Assembly: GCA_949300145.1 (NCBI GenBank)
Contig: CASGDA010000004.1
Span: 62,001-126,000, forward strand
From: an uncultured Treponema sp.
GTDB taxonomy: Bacteria; Spirochaetota; Spirochaetia; Treponematales; Treponemataceae
Length of the DNA stretch: 64,000 nucleotides
Direction of reading: 5' to 3'
Position numbers and translations under genes: made by a program. A model generated the notes under the pieces. That model searched no databases, had not been told where the DNA came from, and saw nothing but the letters and a program-made list of their open reading frames with translations. Shown one piece after another: positions 39,814 to 52,470 of this stretch; within the stretch, counting starts at the first letter, position 1; the number at the start of each line of letters is the position of its first letter.

Positions 39814-40569
39814 ATGATGCACTCTGTTTTTTCCCCGGCCTTATTCCTGTTTCTTCGTCTGTTTCTTTTTCCGGCAGGTTTTACGGAATTACCTGAAATC
39901 CCGGCGACAGAGCATCCTTACGATTCCGTCTATGAATACACGGGATTTACTTTAAAGTATAATGAGGCTCTTAGAATTTCAGATTGGGTTGCATATGAAT
40001 TAACAGAAGAAGAGGCTTCTTCAAAAACAGCGTCAAGAACAAACCGTTTTTACAGCGATATGACCATACCGGAAAAAACCGCGGAAGATTCCGATTACCG
40101 CTATTCCCGCTACGACAGAGGCCATCTTGCCCCCGCCGCAGATATGCGTTTCTCAAAAGAAGCGATGCAGGACAGTTTCTGCCTGACAAACATCACCCCG
40201 CAAAAACCTGAATTCAACCGGGGAATCTGGGCAAAACTGGAACGGGCTGTTAGGGATTGGGTTTCAAGGGATGAAGCATTACTGATAATAACCGGTCCGG
40301 TATTCACTTCGGATGATTTTGCCAGAATAGGAAAAAACGGGGTTGCTGTTCCTGATTTTTTTTATAAGGTGATTCTGGATTACACGTTGCCGGAAAAAAA
40401 GGGTATCGCTTTTATTATTCCGAACAAAAAAACTGAGGATGATTTCTTTTTATTCGCAGTTCCGATTGATGAAGTTGAAAAAATCACCGGCGAGGATTTT
40501 TTCCCCTGGCTTCAGGAGGAAGAAAGCAACCTGGAATCGGAAACAGACGTATCACTCTGGAAAAAATAA
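39814..40569 (+). CDS. Secreted DNA/RNA non-specific endonuclease (NUC1 family)
   Basis: This 251-residue protein has an N-terminal signal peptide (about 1-25) and a beta-beta-alpha metal nuclease domain with the active motif 'DRGHLAPAADM' (catalytic His) and 'NITPQKPEFNRGIWAKLE' (metal-binding Asn). This is the Serratia nuclease/NUC1 family, which degrades DNA and RNA outside the cytoplasm, for nutrient supply or defence. GAGGT precedes an ATGATG; the second ATG (39817) may be used. The parS palindrome follows the stop. Confidence 0.92.
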   Translation: MMHSVFSPALFLFLRLFLFPAGFTELPEIPATEHPYDSVYEYTGFTLKYNEALRISDWVAYELTEEEASSKTASRTNRFYSDMTIPEKTAEDSDYRYSRYDRGHLAPAADMRFSKEAMQDSFCLTNITPQKPEFNRGIWAKLERAVRDWVSRDEALLIITGPVFTSDDFARIGKNGVAVPDFFYKVILDYTLPEKKGIAFIIPNKKTEDDFFLFAVPIDEVEKITGEDFFPWLQEEESNLESETDVSLWKK

Positions 40570-40588: not shown

Positions 40589-40620
40589 CCCTAAAATGTT
40601 TCACGTGAAACATTTTAGGG
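40589..40620. other. parS: parS-type centromere site within a 32-base palindrome
   Basis: TGTTTCACGTGAAACA (40597-40612) is a perfect match to the bacterial parS consensus bound by ParB/Spo0J. It sits inside a perfect 32-base palindrome whose arms extend with CCCTAAAA/TTTTAGGG. It lies between the convergent nuclease and gyrA 3' ends, about 6 kb from the predicted origin, so it may also end transcription from both sides. No second copy was noticed in the window. Confidence 0.85.
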
Positions 40621-40621
40621 T

Positions 40622-43216
40622 TTATTCAGAATCTCCCGCATCCTCGATGGAATCCTCGGGCAAATCATCTTCCCCTGAAACAGCTGCGTTTGCATCATCC
40701 TCAAAATCCATGGGTGTCAAATCTTCTTCCGTATCCTGTTCGGCGGAAAGATTCTCCCCTGCATCCCTGTCAATCTCTTCCCGGACAACCTTATCAAGAC
40801 CGACCACCATATCAGGAATATCTATGTTGAACATCCTTATACCGCCGGCGGTACGGCTCCTTGTGGGAATCTTTCCGGCTTTAAGGCGCAGGGTTTTTCC
40901 CTGGCTCGTTATACAGACAACATCGTCCCTGTCAGCAATTGTAATCGCCCCGACAATTTCGCCGGATTTTTCACTGATATTGTAAATCTTCTGTCCGCCG
41001 GTTCCCCGTCCGTGGGGCTCAAATTGAGAGAACTCAACACGTTTACCGTAGCCGAATTCAGTTATCATTATCATCCGGGATTCTTCCTCCATACGCAAAG
41101 CGGCGGCCAGCTCATCATCGGAAGAAAGTTTAATTCCCTTATTCCCGGCTCCGGTCCGTCCCATTACACGGACTTTTTCCTCATTAAACCGCAGAGCCCT
41201 TCCCTTTCTGGTGATAAGAACCACATCATCCCCGCCGTCCGTAAGAATCGCGGAAATAAGCCTGTCCCCGGAATTAAGGGTTATAGCGCGGATTCCCCTG
41301 GCCTTTGCATTCTGGAATTCACCCGTTTTAATGCGTTTTACAATTCCGTTGGCTGTCGCCAGCAAAAGAAACTGGGTATCTGAAAATTGTTTCAGGGAAA
41401 CCACAACCGTTATCTCTTCATTTGGTGAAATATTCAACAAACTCTTTATATGAGTTCCCCGGGCGGTTCTGTTGGACTCCGGAATCTCGAAAACCTTAAG
41501 CCAATAAGCTTTTCCTTCCGTAGTTATAAAAAGAATATACTCATGGGTGGAAGCGATAAATATCTGGTTTATAAAATCGTCTTCCGCAAGCTTCGCACTG
41601 GCGGAGCCTTTCCCGCCCTTACTTTGATTCTTATAGGCGCTGCTGGGGATACGCTTTATATAACCGAGGCTGGAAATCAAAATAACCATCTCTTCTTTTT
41701 TTATCAAATCTTCTATATTAATTTGCTCTATTTCCCCGTCCACTATATCGGTTTTTCTGTCATCCCCGAATTTCTCCGCCAGCTCATTTGTTTCATCTTT
41801 TATCAGGGCAAGTATTTTTTCAGGATGGGAAAGCAAATCCTTGAGATGGGCTATTAAAGTTTCCAGCTCCTTCAGCTCCATTTCGAGCTTTTCAATTTCC
41901 AGACTGGTCAACCTGCGCAAAGGCATATCAAGGACAGCCTGAGCCTGAACATCATCCAGTGAAAACCGTTCCATAAGGGATTTTTTTGCGGTCTCAACAT
42001 CACTTGAAGCCCTGATAACTTTTATGACCTCATCGATATTATTTACGGCTATTATCAGTCCGCGGAGGATGTGGGCCCTTTCCTCAGCCTTTTTCAAGTC
42101 GAATCTGCAGCGGCGCTCCACAACCTCCTGCCGGTGTTTGACAAACTGGGATATCAAATCCTTTAATGTAAGTGTCACGGGCCGGCCGTCAACAAGAGCC
42201 AGGTTAATGACACCGAAGGCCGTTTGAAGTGAAGTTTTGGCGAAAAGCTGATTCAAAACAACCTTCGCAATGGCACCGCGTTTCAGTTCAATGACGATAC
42301 GTAATCCGGTTCTGTCGGAAGATTCATCATTGACACTGGCGATTCCGTCTATAACCTTATCGCGGGCAAGTTCCCCTATTTTGGAAACCAGGACGGTTGT
42401 ATTCACCTGGTACGGGACTTCCGTGAACACAATCGTCTCCCGGCCTTTTTTGTCAACCTCGATGATGAATCTGCCGCGTATTAAAATTTTTCCGCGGCCG
42501 GTTTTATACGCCTGTTTTATCCCCTTCCGTCCGAAGATGATACCGCCTGTGGGAAAATCAGGACCGGTCACGAATTTCATCAACTCGTCTATGCTGATAT
42601 CCGGGTTACCGATATATGCGGAAACCGCCGCGGCTATTTCCCGTAAATTATGGGGAGGCATATTCGTCGCCATTCCGACCGCAATTCCGCTGGAACCATT
42701 TGCAAGAAGGAAAGGAAACTTTGCAGGAAGAACAACCGGTTCTTTGGTGGATTCATCAAAGTTGGGGATAAAATCCACCGTTTCCTTTTTTATATCCTCG
42801 ACCATGGCCTCTGCGAGCCTGGCCATCTTAGCCTCGGTATACCTGTAGGCGGCGGGAGGATCCCCGGCAATTGTTCCGAAATTTCCCTGGGGAGTTATAA
42901 CAGGATACCGCAGGGAAAAATCCTGTCCCAATCTTACAAGCGCATCATAAACAGATGCATCGCCATGGGGATGGTAACTTCCGAGGACATCACCGACAAT
43001 CTTGGCGCATTTTCGTGTAGGCCCGCTGTTCCGCAAGCCCCTTTCTTCCATGGAATAAAGAATCCGCCTGTGAACCGGCTTTAACCCGTCCCTGACATCC
43101 GGAAGAGCCCGGCTGACAATTACCGACATAGAGTAATCGATATAGGCTTTTTTTACCTCAGTATCTATCGGAACGGGTATAAGAGTTCCGCCTTCAGGTG
43201 TTTTTATCTCTTCCAC
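40622..43216 (-). CDS. gyrA: DNA gyrase subunit A
   Basis: This 864-residue protein has the breakage-reunion domain (1-520) and six beta-pinwheel blades ('KRIKTGEFQNAKARGIRAI', 'GRTGAGNKGIKL' as GyrA-box-like repeats). The catalytic Tyr is in 'AAYRYTEAKM' (Tyr 126). The quinolone-determining region reads HPHGDASVYD: Ala stands where E. coli has Ser83, and Asp87 is kept. The acidic C-terminal tail is long. Start is GTG at 43216 with AGGAGA upstream. Follows gyrB by about 24 bases in the same direction; both run away from dnaA. Confidence 0.97.
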   Translation of the reverse strand: MEEIKTPEGGTLIPVPIDTEVKKAYIDYSMSVIVSRALPDVRDGLKPVHRRILYSMEERGLRNSGPTRKCAKIVGDVLGSYHPHGDASVYDALVRLGQDFSLRYPVITPQGNFGTIAGDPPAAYRYTEAKMARLAEAMVEDIKKETVDFIPNFDESTKEPVVLPAKFPFLLANGSSGIAVGMATNMPPHNLREIAAAVSAYIGNPDISIDELMKFVTGPDFPTGGIIFGRKGIKQAYKTGRGKILIRGRFIIEVDKKGRETIVFTEVPYQVNTTVLVSKIGELARDKVIDGIASVNDESSDRTGLRIVIELKRGAIAKVVLNQLFAKTSLQTAFGVINLALVDGRPVTLTLKDLISQFVKHRQEVVERRCRFDLKKAEERAHILRGLIIAVNNIDEVIKVIRASSDVETAKKSLMERFSLDDVQAQAVLDMPLRRLTSLEIEKLEMELKELETLIAHLKDLLSHPEKILALIKDETNELAEKFGDDRKTDIVDGEIEQINIEDLIKKEEMVILISSLGYIKRIPSSAYKNQSKGGKGSASAKLAEDDFINQIFIASTHEYILFITTEGKAYWLKVFEIPESNRTARGTHIKSLLNISPNEEITVVVSLKQFSDTQFLLLATANGIVKRIKTGEFQNAKARGIRAITLNSGDRLISAILTDGGDDVVLITRKGRALRFNEEKVRVMGRTGAGNKGIKLSSDDELAAALRMEEESRMIMITEFGYGKRVEFSQFEPHGRGTGGQKIYNISEKSGEIVGAITIADRDDVVCITSQGKTLRLKAGKIPTRSRTAGGIRMFNIDIPDMVVGLDKVVREEIDRDAGENLSAEQDTEEDLTPMDFEDDANAAVSGEDDLPEDSIEDAGDSE

Positions 43217-43240: not shown

Positions 43241-45157
43241 CTAAACGTCAAGATTCGCATAAACGGCGTTTTCTTCTATGAATTTTCTGCGCGGTTCAAC
43301 CTCTTCCCCCATAAGAGTGCTGAAAATCCTGTCGGCTTCCACTGCATCGGGAAGAGTAACCCTCATCATTTTACGCTGAGCCGGATCCATTGTTGTTTCC
43401 CAAAGCTGGGTTCCATCCATTTCACCAAGACCTTTATAGCGTTGGACAGAAATTTTATCATTGTCGCGTCCTATCTCTTCCAAAACTTTGTCCCTCTCCG
43501 AGTCATCATACACATACCATTCCTTTTTATTGAAGGAAATTTTATAGAGAGGAGGCATGGCAAGATAAACGTATCCTTTTTCAATAATCTGCGGCATATA
43601 ACGGAAGAAAAATGTCAGAAGCAGGGTTCTGATATGGGAACCGTCAACATCGGCATCCGCCATTATTATAATCTTATGATACCTGATTTTATTTATATCA
43701 AAATCCTTCCCGATTCCGGTTCCAAGGGTGGCAATTATAGGCTGAAGCTTTTCGTTGTTAATAACCTTGTCAACCCTGGTTTTTTCCACATTGAGCATTT
43801 TTCCCCACAAAGGAAGGATTGCCTGAGTCCTGCTGTCCCGGCCTTTTTTTGCAGAACCGCCGGCAGAATCACCCTCAACTATATAAACCTCGCATTTTTC
43901 AGGGTCTTTAAGCGAGCAATCGGACAATTTTCCCGGAAGCCCGAAACTGTCCATACCGCTTTTCCGGCGGGTGGCTTCTTTTGCTTTTCTCGCGGCAATC
44001 CTTGCGGAAGCCTCTGAAACAGCTTTTTCAAGAATAAAATCCAGAGTCCTTGGATTCTGCTCAAAATAAAGGGTAAGCTGCTCATTTACAAGAGAATCAA
44101 CCACGCTGCGGGCTTCTGTATTTCCAAGCTTTGTCTTTGTCTGTCCCTCAAACTGCGGTTCAACTACTTTTATGGAAAGAACAGCAGTCAATCCGGCGCG
44201 GACATCCTCGCCTGCAAGCTTCTCTTCTTTTTCCATTTTTTTCTGAAGCTTTTGGTTTTTCTTGAGGAATTCATTCATAACCCTCGTAAGAGCCGCTTTA
44301 TAACCTTCAAGGTGTGTTCCACCTTCTTTAGTATTTATATCATTAACAAAGCTCAGAATATTCTCGTTATATCCGTCATTATACTGCATGGAAAGATCCA
44401 CTTGTATGTCTTCTTTTTCACCGGATATATAAATAGGTTCAGCCGGAACAGCCTGTTTATTTTCATTAAGATAAACAACAAACTGTTTAATCCCCCCTTC
44501 AAATGAAAAAACCGTTTCCTTCGGAGTTGACAGCCGCTCGTCCCTTAAAACAATTGTTATGCCGCTATTCAAAAAGGCAAGCTCCCTGAGCCTGTTTGCA
44601 AGAATCTCATAATTATACGTTGTCGTTTCTGTGAAAATAGAAGGATCGGCCTTCCAACGTATCATGGTTCCCTGCTTTTCGGTAAAGCCGCCTTCTTCGA
44701 CAGGAGAAACGGGAACACCCACTTCATACCGCTGCTGATACATAGTTCCGTCACGGCACACCACAGCTTCCATCCACACCGACAGGGCATTTACGCAGGA
44801 TACACCTACACCGTGCAGACCTCCAGAGACCTTATAAGAGCCTTTATCAAATTTTCCGCCGGCGTGAAGTCTTGTCAAAACAAGTTCAAGGGCGCTGACA
44901 CCTTCCGTTGGATGTATATCAACAGGAATACCGCGGCCATTGTCCTCTATCCGGCATATATCGTCTTTTTCAAGAACAACGAGAATTCTGTCACAAAAAC
45001 CAGCCATAGCCTCATCTATTGAGTTATCAACAACCTCATAGACAAGATGGTGAAGTCCGTCGGGACCTGTGGAACCTATGTACATTCCAGGGCGTTTTCT
45101 TACCGCCTCAAGTCCTTTTAAAACTTGAATATTTGTAGCTGAATATGAAGAACTCAT
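43241..45157 (-). CDS. gyrB: DNA gyrase subunit B
   Basis: This 638-residue protein has the GHKL ATPase domain ('[16 protein letters not shown]', '[15 protein letters not shown]', '[15 protein letters not shown]') and TOPRIM/DNA-cleavage domain ('[19 protein letters not shown]', '[19 protein letters not shown]'). It lacks the gamma-proteobacterial insert, as is typical outside enterics. In the quinolone region '[14 protein letters not shown]', Trp (about residue 451) replaces E. coli Lys447. CGGAGAA precedes ATG. With gyrA it forms the gyrase A2B2 complex that negatively supercoils DNA. Located next to dnaA, as in many bacteria. Confidence 0.97.
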
Positions 45158-45280: not shown

Positions 45281-46759
45281 ATGTGCACTTTGGATTACAA
45301 TAAGATATGGGAAGAAGTTATAAAAAAACTGGAAAAAACCCTCGAACCGGAAGAATTCACATGGTTTAAAAATATAAAGTACAAAAATTCAAAGGACAAC
45401 ATCATAAATGTTTCCGTTTTCAATTCGTTTTCCAGAGACCAACTCATAACCAGAGGCTATAAAAATTTAATTGAAGAAAATCTGACCGAAATATCGGGAG
45501 AAAAGATAAAACTGAACATTGAAATCAGCACCGACAAAACAGACAAGCAAAAAAATAAGAAACCTGTTTCAATTTCTCCTTCACCTGAAAGCACAGATGA
45601 AAAAGACAAAACAGAAAGCCATGAAATTTCCAAAACGGAAATACAGGCTGATACAAAAAACGAAACAAGTTTCATAAAGGAAGCCAGGAAAAAAAATCCC
45701 CATCCGTCTTTAAAACCGGAATATACTTTTGATAATTTCGTTATAGGTGAAAATAATTCCTTTGCGGCAAACGTGGCTAAATCCGTGGCAGCTAATCCCG
45801 GAAAAGCTTATAATCCCCTGCTCCTTTACGGAGGTTCCGGGCTTGGTAAAACGCATCTTATGGAAGCAATCGGTAATTATGCCTGGGAGAACGGCGATTA
45901 TAAAATAGTTTATATAACAGCTGAAGATTTTCTCAACGAATTCATTGAATTCCTACAGGTACCTTTGGAGAACAAAAGCTCCCACAAAATATCCAATAAA
46001 ATGTCCGAATTCAAAAACAAATACAGAAAGGCTGATATTCTTCTGCTTGACGATATACATTTTTTCCAGGGGAAAGAAGGTATACAGGAAGAACTTTTCC
46101 ACACTTTCAACGCCCTGGACCAGGCGGGGAAGCAGATAGTCTTTACCTGCGACAGACCGGTAAACGAGCTTTCAAAATTCCAGGACAGGCTTAAATCAAG
46201 GTGTGAAAGAGGCCTCAACGTGGATTTACAGCCGCCTAATTTTGAAACGCGCTGCGCAATTCTCAGAAAAAAAACATCCAACCAGGGAATGAATATTTCC
46301 AACGATGTTATTTCTCTTATCGCTGAAAACGTTTCAACGAATATACGTGATCTCGAAGGATGCCTCACAAAGATAATAGCCTATTCAAATTTCAAAAATA
46401 CAGAGATAACAAAAGATATGGCTTATCATCTCCTTAAAGATAATTTCGGCTCCCAGCCTCAAAAAAACATCACGGTGGAAATGATACAAAAAGCTGTGGC
46501 GCAATATTTCAATATCTCTTACATAGATTTGAAAGGCAAAAAAAGAAATCAATCCCTTGTTTTTCCGCGCCATATAGCCATGTATTTATGCAGAAATCTG
46601 ACAGAGTTATCCACAACTGAAATAGGCATTGAATTCGGAGGAAGGGATCATACAACTGTCATGCACGGCTCACAAAAAATAGAGGACAGAATAAAAGCCG
46701 AACCAGCCCTTGAAAAAAGCATAATGGAGATAACCAAAAGCGTAAAAGAGCCCAAATAA
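45281..46759 (+). CDS. dnaA: Chromosomal replication initiator DnaA
   Basis: This 492-residue protein has an N-terminal interaction domain (1-85, 'KIWEEVIKKLEKTLEPEEF'), a lysine/glutamate-rich linker (90-145), an AAA+ domain with Walker A 'GGSGLGKTH' (about residue 184) and Walker B 'ILLLDDIHF' (about 255). A C-terminal DNA-binding domain carries the DnaA signature 'IGIEFGGRDHTTVMHGSQKI'. ATG at 45281 (MCTLDYNKIWEEV) is chosen because homology starts there; the open frame extends to 45194 but runs over the promoter. Initiates replication at the adjacent origin. The start has no ribosome binding site. Confidence 0.96.
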   Translation: MCTLDYNKIWEEVIKKLEKTLEPEEFTWFKNIKYKNSKDNIINVSVFNSFSRDQLITRGYKNLIEENLTEISGEKIKLNIEISTDKTDKQKNKKPVSISPSPESTDEKDKTESHEISKTEIQADTKNETSFIKEARKKNPHPSLKPEYTFDNFVIGENNSFAANVAKSVAANPGKAYNPLLLYGGSGLGKTHLMEAIGNYAWENGDYKIVYITAEDFLNEFIEFLQVPLENKSSHKISNKMSEFKNKYRKADILLLDDIHFFQGKEGIQEELFHTFNALDQAGKQIVFTCDRPVNELSKFQDRLKSRCERGLNVDLQPPNFETRCAILRKKTSNQGMNISNDVISLIAENVSTNIRDLEGCLTKIIAYSNFKNTEITKDMAYHLLKDNFGSQPQKNITVEMIQKAVAQYFNISYIDLKGKKRNQSLVFPRHIAMYLCRNLTELSTTEIGIEFGGRDHTTVMHGSQKIEDRIKAEPALEKSIMEITKSVKEPK

Positions 46760-46782
46760 ATCCAATCCTGATAATCTTTTAT

Positions 46783-46987
46783 TGTGGAATTTTATGTGGA
46801 TTATATGATAAAATACTGTGTAAAATATGTTGAAAAACAAGGATGCTGTTGAAACTGTGTATAAAACTAATTTACAATCCACAGGAAATCTGAGCTTAAA
46901 TTCTTTCAAGATAAAGACTTAAAAAGTTTTTCAGATATTCACAGACTATATATTATTACTATTTATTTATATATATATAATAATAAA
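46783..46987. other. oriC: Predicted replication origin (oriC): DnaA boxes and AT-rich unwinding region
   Basis: The 249-base dnaA-dnaN gap contains TGTGTATAA (46856-46864, exact reverse of TTATACACA) and near matches TGTGGATTA (46795), TGTGTAAAA (46817), CAATCCACA (46875) and ATATTCACA (46935). A nearly pure AT stretch (46947-46986, many TA steps) follows. A perfect TTATCCACA also occurs inside dnaA at 46607. Gene orientation changes here: gyrA-gyrB run left, dnaA-dnaN-recF right. Together this fits a bacterial origin. Confidence 0.7.
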
Positions 46988-47008
46988 GGAAAAGACGGAG
47001 GATAAAAC

Positions 47009-48112
47009 ATGAACTTTAATTTCGATAGAGACGCTCTCTTAAAAGAAATATCAATAGCGCAGGAAATTATTTCAACGAAAAATGCCATATCGATATTATC
47101 GAATGTTTTTCTTGAAGCTTCAAACGGAACCTTGAAAATAAAAGCCACAGACATAAAAATGAATTTTGAAACTTCAATACCTGTTGAAGTAATAGAACCC
47201 GGTTTTGTAACTGTTTTCTGTGACAAATTTTCCAGCATCCTTTCTTCCCTGCCTTCAGGGGAGATAAATTTTTCGCAGGACAATATAAGGGTGAATATAC
47301 GGCCCACCGCTAAAAAGGCGAATTTCCAGCTGAAAAGCATAGCAGGAGATAAATTTCCCGAATCAATTTCCGCTGAAAATGTTTCTTTCTTTGACATACC
47401 TGCCAAAACCCTGAAAAAAATGATAAATCAGACAATCTTCTCTGTTTCCGATGATGATTTGCGTTATTTCATGAATGGCGTTTACATGGAAAAGGATGAA
47501 AAAACCCTGAAAATGGTTGCGACAGACGGAAGGCGTCTTGCCTTTATTTCTTCAGAGCAGGACTATGTGCTTCCAGACTTCAAAGGTTCCATTATTCCCA
47601 CAAAGATACTGAATATAGTTTCAAAGCGTGCTCCTGATGAAGGGCCTGTATCAATAGGAATAACCGATAAAAACATATTTTTCAGATTCGGAAACTATGA
47701 GTTTTCTTCCCTTCTCATAGACGGTCAGTTCCCGAATTACAGCCGCGTAATTCCTGAATCCCAGGCTTATTCTTTCCAGGTTGAAAGAAAAGAGCTGGTT
47801 GAAGCTTTGAAGCGAGTCGCCCTCCTTGTAGAGCAGAAATCAAGGCGTGTTTATCTCAATGTTTCGTCCGGAACCCTTACGATAAGTTCCCAGGAAACGG
47901 AAATAGGTGCCGCCAATGAGGAAATTCCATGCCGTTATGACGGGGAAAACATAACGATTGCAATAAATTATGTTTATCTTGAAGAGCCTATAAAAGTTAT
48001 AGACACAGACACTCTCAAAATAGAATTCACTGAATCCATGAAGGCTATAACTTTGAAGTCTGAACCTGAGGAAAATTTCTTCCACATAATTATGCCGATG
48101 CAAATGGAATAA
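47009..48112 (+). CDS. dnaN: DNA polymerase III sliding clamp (beta)
   Basis: This 367-residue three-domain clamp is full family length. Landmarks are 'FNFDRDALLKEISIAQEIIS' at the start, 'ATDGRRLAFIS' in domain 2, 'LIDGQFPNYSRVIP' and the C-terminal 'EENFFHIIMPMQME', close to the usual 'MPMR' end. The dimeric ring tethers polymerase to DNA. ACGGAGG precedes ATG at 47009. The 8-base gap to recF indicates an operon. Confidence 0.97.
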   Translation: MNFNFDRDALLKEISIAQEIISTKNAISILSNVFLEASNGTLKIKATDIKMNFETSIPVEVIEPGFVTVFCDKFSSILSSLPSGEINFSQDNIRVNIRPTAKKANFQLKSIAGDKFPESISAENVSFFDIPAKTLKKMINQTIFSVSDDDLRYFMNGVYMEKDEKTLKMVATDGRRLAFISSEQDYVLPDFKGSIIPTKILNIVSKRAPDEGPVSIGITDKNIFFRFGNYEFSSLLIDGQFPNYSRVIPESQAYSFQVERKELVEALKRVALLVEQKSRRVYLNVSSGTLTISSQETEIGAANEEIPCRYDGENITIAINYVYLEEPIKVIDTDTLKIEFTESMKAITLKSEPEENFFHIIMPMQME

Positions 48113-50646: not shown

Positions 50647-52470
50647 ATGGAAAAAAACACAATAATCGCCATTATTTTGTCTGCTTTAGTAATAATCGTC
50701 GGATTTTCACTTCAAAGTTATTTGTTTCCTCCGGTTGAAACACCTGCATCTGAAACCGCTTCCGGATCTGTTCAGGAAACTGACGGAAGTTCGGAAATGC
50801 AGACATCGGAAGTCACTTCATTTATAGAAGATGAGGTTGATTCCGGAATCACCGAATCGGAAGAAATTTTGGAAGAGCAGTTATATACAATTGAGACGGA
50901 TCTTGTAAAAGTTGTTTTTACAAACCGCGGAGGGGATATCGTTTCATATCTTCTGAAAGAGGAAAATTCCAACGGGGATAAAACCGATGAAAGCCTTTTT
51001 ATAGAAATGGCTGATTATACAACGGAGAAAAACAGGGCGTTTTCGCTCATGTTCGGGGATGAAAGCGGAGCTCCCGTTGATAAGATTTTCAATGTCAGAG
51101 TAATAAATGATACTTCAATAGGGTTTTATACGACGGTGAAAACAAAAGGCAGTTCCGGCACGGAAAATTCCTTTGTGCTTGCAAAGCAATATACTTTCCA
51201 TCCTGATGATTATATGTTCGAGCTTGTCGTGACAATTGACGGTGATAATAGTTTCAACGGTCTTAATTTTGGAGGCTCGGCATACACTTTAAAAACTTCG
51301 CCGCAGATAGGTCCGGAATGGGATTCAGTCCGCGATAAATATGATTACAGGCGGTTCCATTATATCCAGGACGGAAAACAGAAAAAAATCACGCTGGGGG
51401 ACGGACAGACCAGAACCGTTCAAGGAAATGTTTCCTGGGCAGGCGTTGTAGGGAAATATTTTACGCTCATAGCCGTTCCCGATTTTCCGATTCAAAAAAC
51501 TTCATATTCCACTGTAGTAAAGGGAGAGGGTAAAAACGCCGCCCAGATTTATCTCACCAGACCGGCTGTAAACGCTTCACGCAGCAGTGATGTCTGGTAT
51601 GTTTACATAGGACCGAGGACTGAAAAGGAGCTGGCCGCTTATAATGTCGCTTCAAACAACCCCTATGGTTTGAGCGGCAGGAATTTGAATCAGGCGGTTG
51701 AGAGTTCCGGTATTCTTGCCCCACTTGAAATAGTTTTGAAATGGATAATGGAGATTTTCCACAAGATTATACCCAACTGGGGTGTATCCATTCTCTTGAT
51801 GACCCTTCTTATGAGGGTGATTATATTCCCGCTGACAAGAAAAAGTTCTGAATCCACTTTGAAGATGCAGGAACTGCAGCCGAGGATGAAGGAAATTCAG
51901 GATAAGTATACAGGTAATCCCCAGAAAATGAATGAGGAAATGGCAAAGCTGTACAAAGAAACGGGATATAATCCTCTTTCTGGTTGTCTTCCGCTGTTGA
52001 TTCAGTTTCCGCTGATTTTCGCCATGTATAACCTGTTCAATAATTATTTTGAATTCCGCGGTGCGATGTTTATCCCCGGGTGGATTCCTGATTTATCCCG
52101 CGGTGATTCCGTCTATACACTCGGATTCAACCTTCCTTTCGGTATTGGAAACCAGGTCAGGCTTTTACCGATAATTTATGTGTTTTCCCAGCTGCTTTTC
52201 GGAAAAATCACACAGCCCGGCGGAATGAGCGGACAGCAGGCAAAGTCAATGAAATTCATGATGTATGGAATGCCGCTGATTTTCTTCTTTATCTTTTATA
52301 ACGCTCCGTCAGGGCTGCTTATTTACTGGATTGCCTCCAACCTCCTGACTTTGGTGCAGCAGATTATTATAAACAAGATGATTCACGGGAAAAAGGCTGA
52401 AAGCAACGGAAAGGATTCCGGCGGGAATATTTCCACCAAAGCGCCTGTAAAAAAAGCGCCGAAAAAATAA
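50647..52470 (+). CDS. yidC: Membrane protein insertase YidC
   Basis: This 607-residue protein is of the Gram-negative YidC type. It has an N-terminal membrane anchor (about 5-25), an acidic linker, a large periplasmic beta-supersandwich (about 75-350) and the conserved five-helix insertase core (about 370-560). The core has 'NWGVSILLMTLLMRVIIFPLTRKS', 'GYNPLSGCLPLLIQFPLIFAMYNLF' and 'FFIFYNAPSGLLIYWIASNLL' in order. A lysine-rich tail ends the protein and may bind ribosomes. GGAGC precedes ATG. It inserts membrane proteins alone or with Sec. Confidence 0.96.
   Translation: MEKNTIIAIILSALVIIVGFSLQSYLFPPVETPASETASGSVQETDGSSEMQTSEVTSFIEDEVDSGITESEEILEEQLYTIETDLVKVVFTNRGGDIVSYLLKEENSNGDKTDESLFIEMADYTTEKNRAFSLMFGDESGAPVDKIFNVRVINDTSIGFYTTVKTKGSSGTENSFVLAKQYTFHPDDYMFELVVTIDGDNSFNGLNFGGSAYTLKTSPQIGPEWDSVRDKYDYRRFHYIQDGKQKKITLGDGQTRTVQGNVSWAGVVGKYFTLIAVPDFPIQKTSYSTVVKGEGKNAAQIYLTRPAVNASRSSDVWYVYIGPRTEKELAAYNVASNNPYGLSGRNLNQAVESSGILAPLEIVLKWIMEIFHKIIPNWGVSILLMTLLMRVIIFPLTRKSSESTLKMQELQPRMKEIQDKYTGNPQKMNEEMAKLYKETGYNPLSGCLPLLIQFPLIFAMYNLFNNYFEFRGAMFIPGWIPDLSRGDSVYTLGFNLPFGIGNQVRLLPIIYVFSQLLFGKITQPGGMSGQQAKSMKFMMYGMPLIFFFIFYNAPSGLLIYWIASNLLTLVQQIIINKMIHGKKAESNGKDSGGNISTKAPVKKAPKK

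Follow-up and report, generated by a model that had tools for sequence, protein, structure and literature searches.

ParB binding, CTP clamping, sliding, pulling by ParA and SMC loading are established behaviours of ParABS systems. Reviews (PMC7022226, PMC7333895) treat as normal any number of oriC-proximal parS sites from one to over 20, and the second of them also describes a single parS in Xanthomonas campestris. In the literature searched (titles and the openings of abstracts, with most subscription papers outside its reach), we found neither a treponemal parS at gyrA nor a parS within a terminator, and what is said to be the main survey of parS sites, by Livny et al. in 2007, may well list treponemal parS.

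We analysed a stretch of 64,000 nucleotides from an uncultured Treponema sp. (hereafter, the window), in which parS forms the centre of a longer palindrome (Table 1). This element is very probably best explained as the chromosomal parS, or centromere, of a treponeme, a role predicted from sequence.

Table 1 Features of the palindrome and its surroundings, in window coordinates.
Feature	Coordinates	Strand	Basis or remark
DNA/RNA non-specific endonuclease gene (Endonuclease_NS)	39814..40569	+	PF01223, E 2.6e-52; converges on palindrome
32-bp perfect palindrome	40589..40620	.	parS plus 8-bp arms CCCTAAAA / TTTTAGGG
parS, exact 16-bp TGTTTCACGTGAAACA, predicted ParB loading site	40597..40612	.	Sequence match; genome-wide motif count
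gyrA	40622..43216	-	PF00521, E 1.8e-163; converges on palindrome
gyrB	43241..45157	-	
dnaA	45194..46759	+	
dnaA-dnaN gap, likely oriC	46760..47008	.	DnaA boxes, inverted repeats, skew minimum; inference

An earlier sequence-only reading had described a perfect 32-base palindrome with the consensus ParB site at its centre, lying 6 kb from oriC between the convergent stops of the nuclease and gyrA genes, and each of these points held. An inverted-repeat search returned halves at 40589-40604 and 40605-40620, each of 16 nt, 100% complementary and with zero gap; the arms are fully complementary, and the 16-base core matches the consensus exactly. Zero-gap palindromes with arms of at least 16 are rare: outside parS, the treponemal loci, 805,436 bases in all, contain just one. 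Allowing up to three mismatches, the window contains two parS-type matches (expected, 0.34), one of them exact; the other, at 52379, has three mismatches and was treated as a chance match rather than a second parS. The 32-mer also matched 48 plasmid records of many taxa, three of which cover at least 80% of the query, and we read these as matches to the parS core.

Gene calls agree with the convergent arrangement. The nuclease and gyrA stops face each other across 52 bp, with the palindrome starting 19 nt past the former and ending 1 nt from the latter. Past gyrA, the gene order is gyrB, dnaA, dnaN and a RecF-like gene, the name recF being our reading of SMC_N/AAA matches together with gene order. 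Cumulative GC skew reaches its minimum at 46001-48000, an exact DnaA box lies at 46607, just upstream of the dnaA-dnaN gap, one-mismatch boxes follow at 46795 and 46856, and AT-rich inverted repeats occupy 46956-46991, in or near the gap. Because the skew minimum and DnaA boxes are found there, the dnaA-dnaN gap is the likely oriC, approximately 6 kb from parS.

The window belongs to a draft genome of 2.24 Mb in 20 contigs, estimated to be 94.65% complete. Consistent with the single copy noticed earlier, a search of the whole draft with up to two mismatches recovered parS only at this position, although further copies could be missing because the genome is a draft. The window had also been said to lack parA and parB, and a family search of the whole genome bears this out, with all three ParB_N matches falling on other contigs. 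On one of these contigs (G000:C14), a gene for a 251-aa ParA precedes one for a 300-aa ParB, so that the absence of a parB gene, which would have spoken against a parS, does not apply.

This ParB matches known structures of the Spo0J/ParB type (1vz0 at E 5e-58). With residue numbers assigned by hand on an alignment that includes Caulobacter ParB (6t1f), it carries R and G at the positions of Caulobacter R173 and G201, and A and K at positions 179 and 184 by hand count. According to PMC7383237, R173 and G201 make contact with parS and are invariant among ParB proteins, while 179 and 184 vary freely. The N-terminus holds an LGRGL motif, identified as ParA-stimulating in PMC9712426, and ScpA is likewise present in the genome. 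From parS, the parA-parB pair, the parS-reading residues and the LGRGL motif, we conclude that the genome has a complete, ordinary ParABS system as judged by its genes.

Other identities were considered and rejected. The best NCBIfam match of the same ParB is the Noc model, which scored below its cut-off (230.8 versus 315 bits); a Noc/NBS identity was discarded because the site has the parS sequence and the protein has R and G, not the equivalents of Noc Q173 and R201. Neither of two other ParB-like genes was taken as that of the chromosomal ParB: one (G000:C2) has a product of 142 aa that contains the N domain, and the other (G000:C6) belongs to a ParA-ParB-SSB set resembling an integrative element. 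This second ParA-ParB pair, with its single-strand binding protein (L004, G000:C6:88574-91870), is probably part of such an element.

The position of the site is shared widely. Counting that of the window itself, 59 genomes were compared; 48 of them, and 43 of the 46 of good quality, contain parS with at most one mismatch, and the reversed control pattern occurs in 0 of the 59. Across the window and loci L001-L113, a set in which some loci represent other families within the order and some of the 113 lie outside the spirochaetes, deduplication left 287 parS sites with at most two mismatches: 262 within 3.5 kb downstream of the gyrA stop, 12 elsewhere in gyrA loci and 13 where the locus lacks gyrA. 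Those downstream of gyrA are spread over 71 loci, with 1 to 15 per locus. At least one such site was found in 55 of the 70 gyrA loci L034-L103, and in 39 of the 48 that extend at least 2.5 kb past gyrA; no downstream parS was seen in 15, nine of which have more than 2.5 kb available. These locus counts (55/70 and 39/48) identify the gyrA 3' side as the usual predicted centromere region of the family, a position that sequence comparison marks as inherited. GyrA comparison places an uncultured Treponema (locus L034, 96% identity) nearest among the named relatives, and in the sister species G002 (GyrA 96% identical) parS lies 10 nt after the gyrA stop, facing a convergent open reading frame of 250 codons versus 252 in the window. 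Since related treponemes have parS downstream of gyrA, we regard the window's parS as an ordinary chromosomal centromere.

Several further patterns were seen in the post-gyrA stretch. The DnaA-box-like TTATNCACA occurs 83 times per 144,394 bases in the first 2.5 kb after gyrA (L034-L103), compared with seven times in 167,869 bases of gyrA itself and five for the reversed pattern; because the motif is so dense there, many treponemes may have oriC located together with their parS array in this region. Four loci (L076, L096, L100 and L102) have arrays of 9-15 parS-like sites after gyrA whose centre is often TGTTTCATGTGAAACA or TGTTTCACATGAAACA, and these drifted centres suggest, from sequence, a shifted ParB preference. 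At L089:8938-10027, all five post-gyrA sites read TGTTCCACGTGGAACA, which departs from parS symmetrically at two bases.

Unlike the core, the 8-bp arms are not shared by the closest genomes. No symmetric flank surrounds the parS of G002, and the third member of the window's genus (80% complete) gave no match to the site. Because G002 keeps parS in place without arms, the 32-bp form is, as far as sampled, specific to the window's lineage and the arms are recent by sequence comparison. Symmetric extension was zero at 181 of the 262 gyrA-near sites, yet long arms exceed expectation: arms of at least 6 occur at nine of 262 sites and arms of at least 8 at five of 262, against means of 0.56 and 0.07 in 5,000 permutations. 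Sliding one flank, or taking other positions in the same regions (expected 0.28 and 0.06, respectively), gave the same outcome, and chance as the origin of the palindrome was ruled out by the permutation, sliding and background controls. Arms of at least 8 were found at four of the 26 sites that lie no more than 60 nt from the 3' end of a gene versus one of 236 elsewhere (p 3.6e-4), or at three of 25 versus one of 236 with the window excluded (p 0.003); these statistics ignore kinship among loci, follow several cut-offs tried and take gene ends from a simple ORF rule.

A second survey sought parS followed by a T-run in 274 genomes of the family, a design biased towards T-runs, and matched 37, of which 30 loci were analysed. 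It added four genomes (G092, G079, G080 and G035) with arms of 8-11. Over all loci combined, comprising 391 distinct sites and including the T-run bias, arms of at least 8 were present at six of the 42 sites located 60 nt or less from gene ends and four of 349 elsewhere. With compensatory arm changes in view, four genera were considered: the window's (three genomes) and that of G015 (one), both too small for the comparison, that of G033 (seven) and that of G080 (eight). Among the sites seen in the G033 genus, long arms are confined to G033; in the G080 genus, arms of at least 8 occur in G078, G079 and G080, those of G078 being located elsewhere than those of G079 and G080. At the G078 position, five aligned species carry the repeat, imperfect in four and perfect in the fifth. 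The two longest palindromes around parS both lie off called gene ends: a perfect 42-bp palindrome (arms of 13) around the second parS of G033 (L029:2183-2224), and a perfect 40-bp palindrome (arms of 12) around parS in G078 (L164:1489-1528).

In the RNA of either strand, the window's palindrome folds into a hairpin whose 14-16 base pairs are closed by a 4-nt loop, placing a stable hairpin right after each gene stop, at 1 nt for gyrA and 19 nt for the nuclease. The ten bases past the stem contain four T in the gyrA direction and five on the nuclease strand, short of a U-tract in the first case and borderline in the second, and the hairpin is not conserved in close relatives, with G002 lacking arms. 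A terminator scan of the window returned 0 terminator-like matches at the palindrome, and for this reason we do not claim a terminator here. T-runs past the stem in the gyrA direction are richer in several other treponemes (6 to 8 of ten bases in T. parvum, G092, G015 and G080, and 4 in G079). The T. parvum parS hairpin was called terminator-like by the scan. G015 has GGGA-parS-TCCC followed by seven T and was not called by the scan, an outcome that we read as arising because A-T pairs use up the T-run. T. parvum and its relative G092 share the same arms and T-tract despite divergence on the gyrA side, but conservation is also good on the opposite side.

How the arms arose and what they do can be explained in several ways. 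The earlier reading had proposed a single element serving both segregation and two-way transcription termination. Its first half stands as a prediction, with an exact, single and oriC-proximal site, ParA and ParB in the genome, and a gyrA-downstream position in relatives. Its second half is weak, as the scan gave no match, the T-runs are short and the sister species is armless. That the arms were selected so that the centromere would also end transcription of both gyrA and the gene converging on it, right where ParB would load, is possible but doubtful. The perfect hairpin abuts both stops in a region that folds at -27.3 kcal/mol (z -3.88), and long arms are enriched near gene 3' ends whether or not the window is counted. 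The terminator-like hairpin of T. parvum, the arms and seven T of G015, and the retention of arms and T-tract in G092 despite its diverged gyrA side all point the same way. Against these stand the negative scan of the window with just four and five T per ten bases, the armless sister species, the uncalled G015 hairpin, the longest arms of all (13 in L029 and 12 in L164), which neither sit at called gene ends nor have a strong T-run, and L089, which lies at a gene end but also lacks such a run. Two-way termination gains plausibility from the other treponemes in which a parS hairpin and T-tract follow the gyrA stop, so a double role is possible; for the window itself, we hold a terminator role only tentatively. 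It is rather unlikely, though conceivable, that treponemes have repeatedly built their centromere into the gyrA-end terminator, such that one palindrome would load ParB/SMC and stop RNA polymerase from entering the loading zone, with the window a weak or decaying case and T. parvum and G015 the clear examples. The lead of parS in gyrA-end terminator hairpins belongs to some relatives rather than to the window.

Quasi-palindrome correction is a known process of hairpin-templated repair, and there is a real, if less than even, prospect that the arms are its functionless by-product, the 16-bp palindrome seeding repair that occasionally perfects the flanks. Non-parS zero-gap palindromes with arms of at least 8 extend by at least 4, 6 and 8 more bases in five, two and one of 42 cases, and perfect-core parS sites in the same loci do so at a similar rate (seven, three and two of 72). 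An imperfect flanking repeat perfect in one of five species of the G078 genus also fits, as does the window's gyrA-distal arm, which is closer to the G002 flank than is the gyrA-side arm (two sequences). This process predicts neither the greater frequency of arms near gene ends nor the T-tracts that some of them have, and the generic palindromes, few in number, may themselves be selected hairpins. Because generic palindromes extend similarly and the G078 genus shows this pattern, a mutational origin of the arms is as likely as selection; the T. parvum and G092 pair favours selection, though the other flank is also conserved there. It is improbable that the arms form an extended ParB site whose symmetric flanks would strengthen ParB binding or clamp loading. 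At the 262 sites, the first four flank bases favour A to the left of parS (frequency 0.38-0.49) and T to its right (0.44-0.56), falling to about one-third further out, and the window's arms begin AAAA/TTTT. This lean fades by position 5, so that CCCT/AGGG is left unexplained, and the majority of sites (181 of 262) are armless. In its own right, the A-left/T-right lean may mean that the ParB site is slightly longer than 16 bp. That the parS match is a chance one with no centromere role is scarcely credible, given an exact 16-mer, single in the draft, oriC-proximal, in the same place in relatives and accompanied by a cognate ParB.

If the window's parS is the chromosomal centromere, as we consider very probable, dimers of ParB, encoded with ParA on the other contig, would bind the 16-bp core and close into CTP clamps, which would slide outward across the gyrA/oriC region and be pulled apart by ParA, while ParB would also load SMC condensin. 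The 8-bp arms would turn the site into a long hairpin against both gene stops, probably with at most a modest 3'-end function, such as RNA 3' stability or weak two-way termination. A parS of this kind is already known and its place is conserved, leaving the longer hairpin around it as the sole unusual point. Together, these results provide a complete in silico ParABS assignment for an uncultured treponeme and place parS downstream of gyrA as a family-wide arrangement; were the hairpin role true, the locus would illustrate in compact form how a centromere's own sequence can shield it from transcription.

Compared with intrinsic terminators, which combine a hairpin with a U-tract, the window's hairpin is similar in lying directly past two converging stops and differs in its weak U-tract, negative scan and lack of conservation in the sister species. 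Like Borrelia burgdorferi, the window represents a spirochaete with a chromosomal parS near oriC, but parA and parB are close to parS there (PMC9712426), whereas here they are on another contig. Unlike the usual chromosomal parS, the site forms the centre of a perfect palindrome of 32 bp and lies where gyrA ends, with parAB on a separate contig. In common with chromosomal ParABS systems, it is oriC-proximal in a genome that encodes both ParA and ParB, and its core fits exactly the chromosomal parS consensus TGTTNCACGTGAAACA given in PMC7022226.
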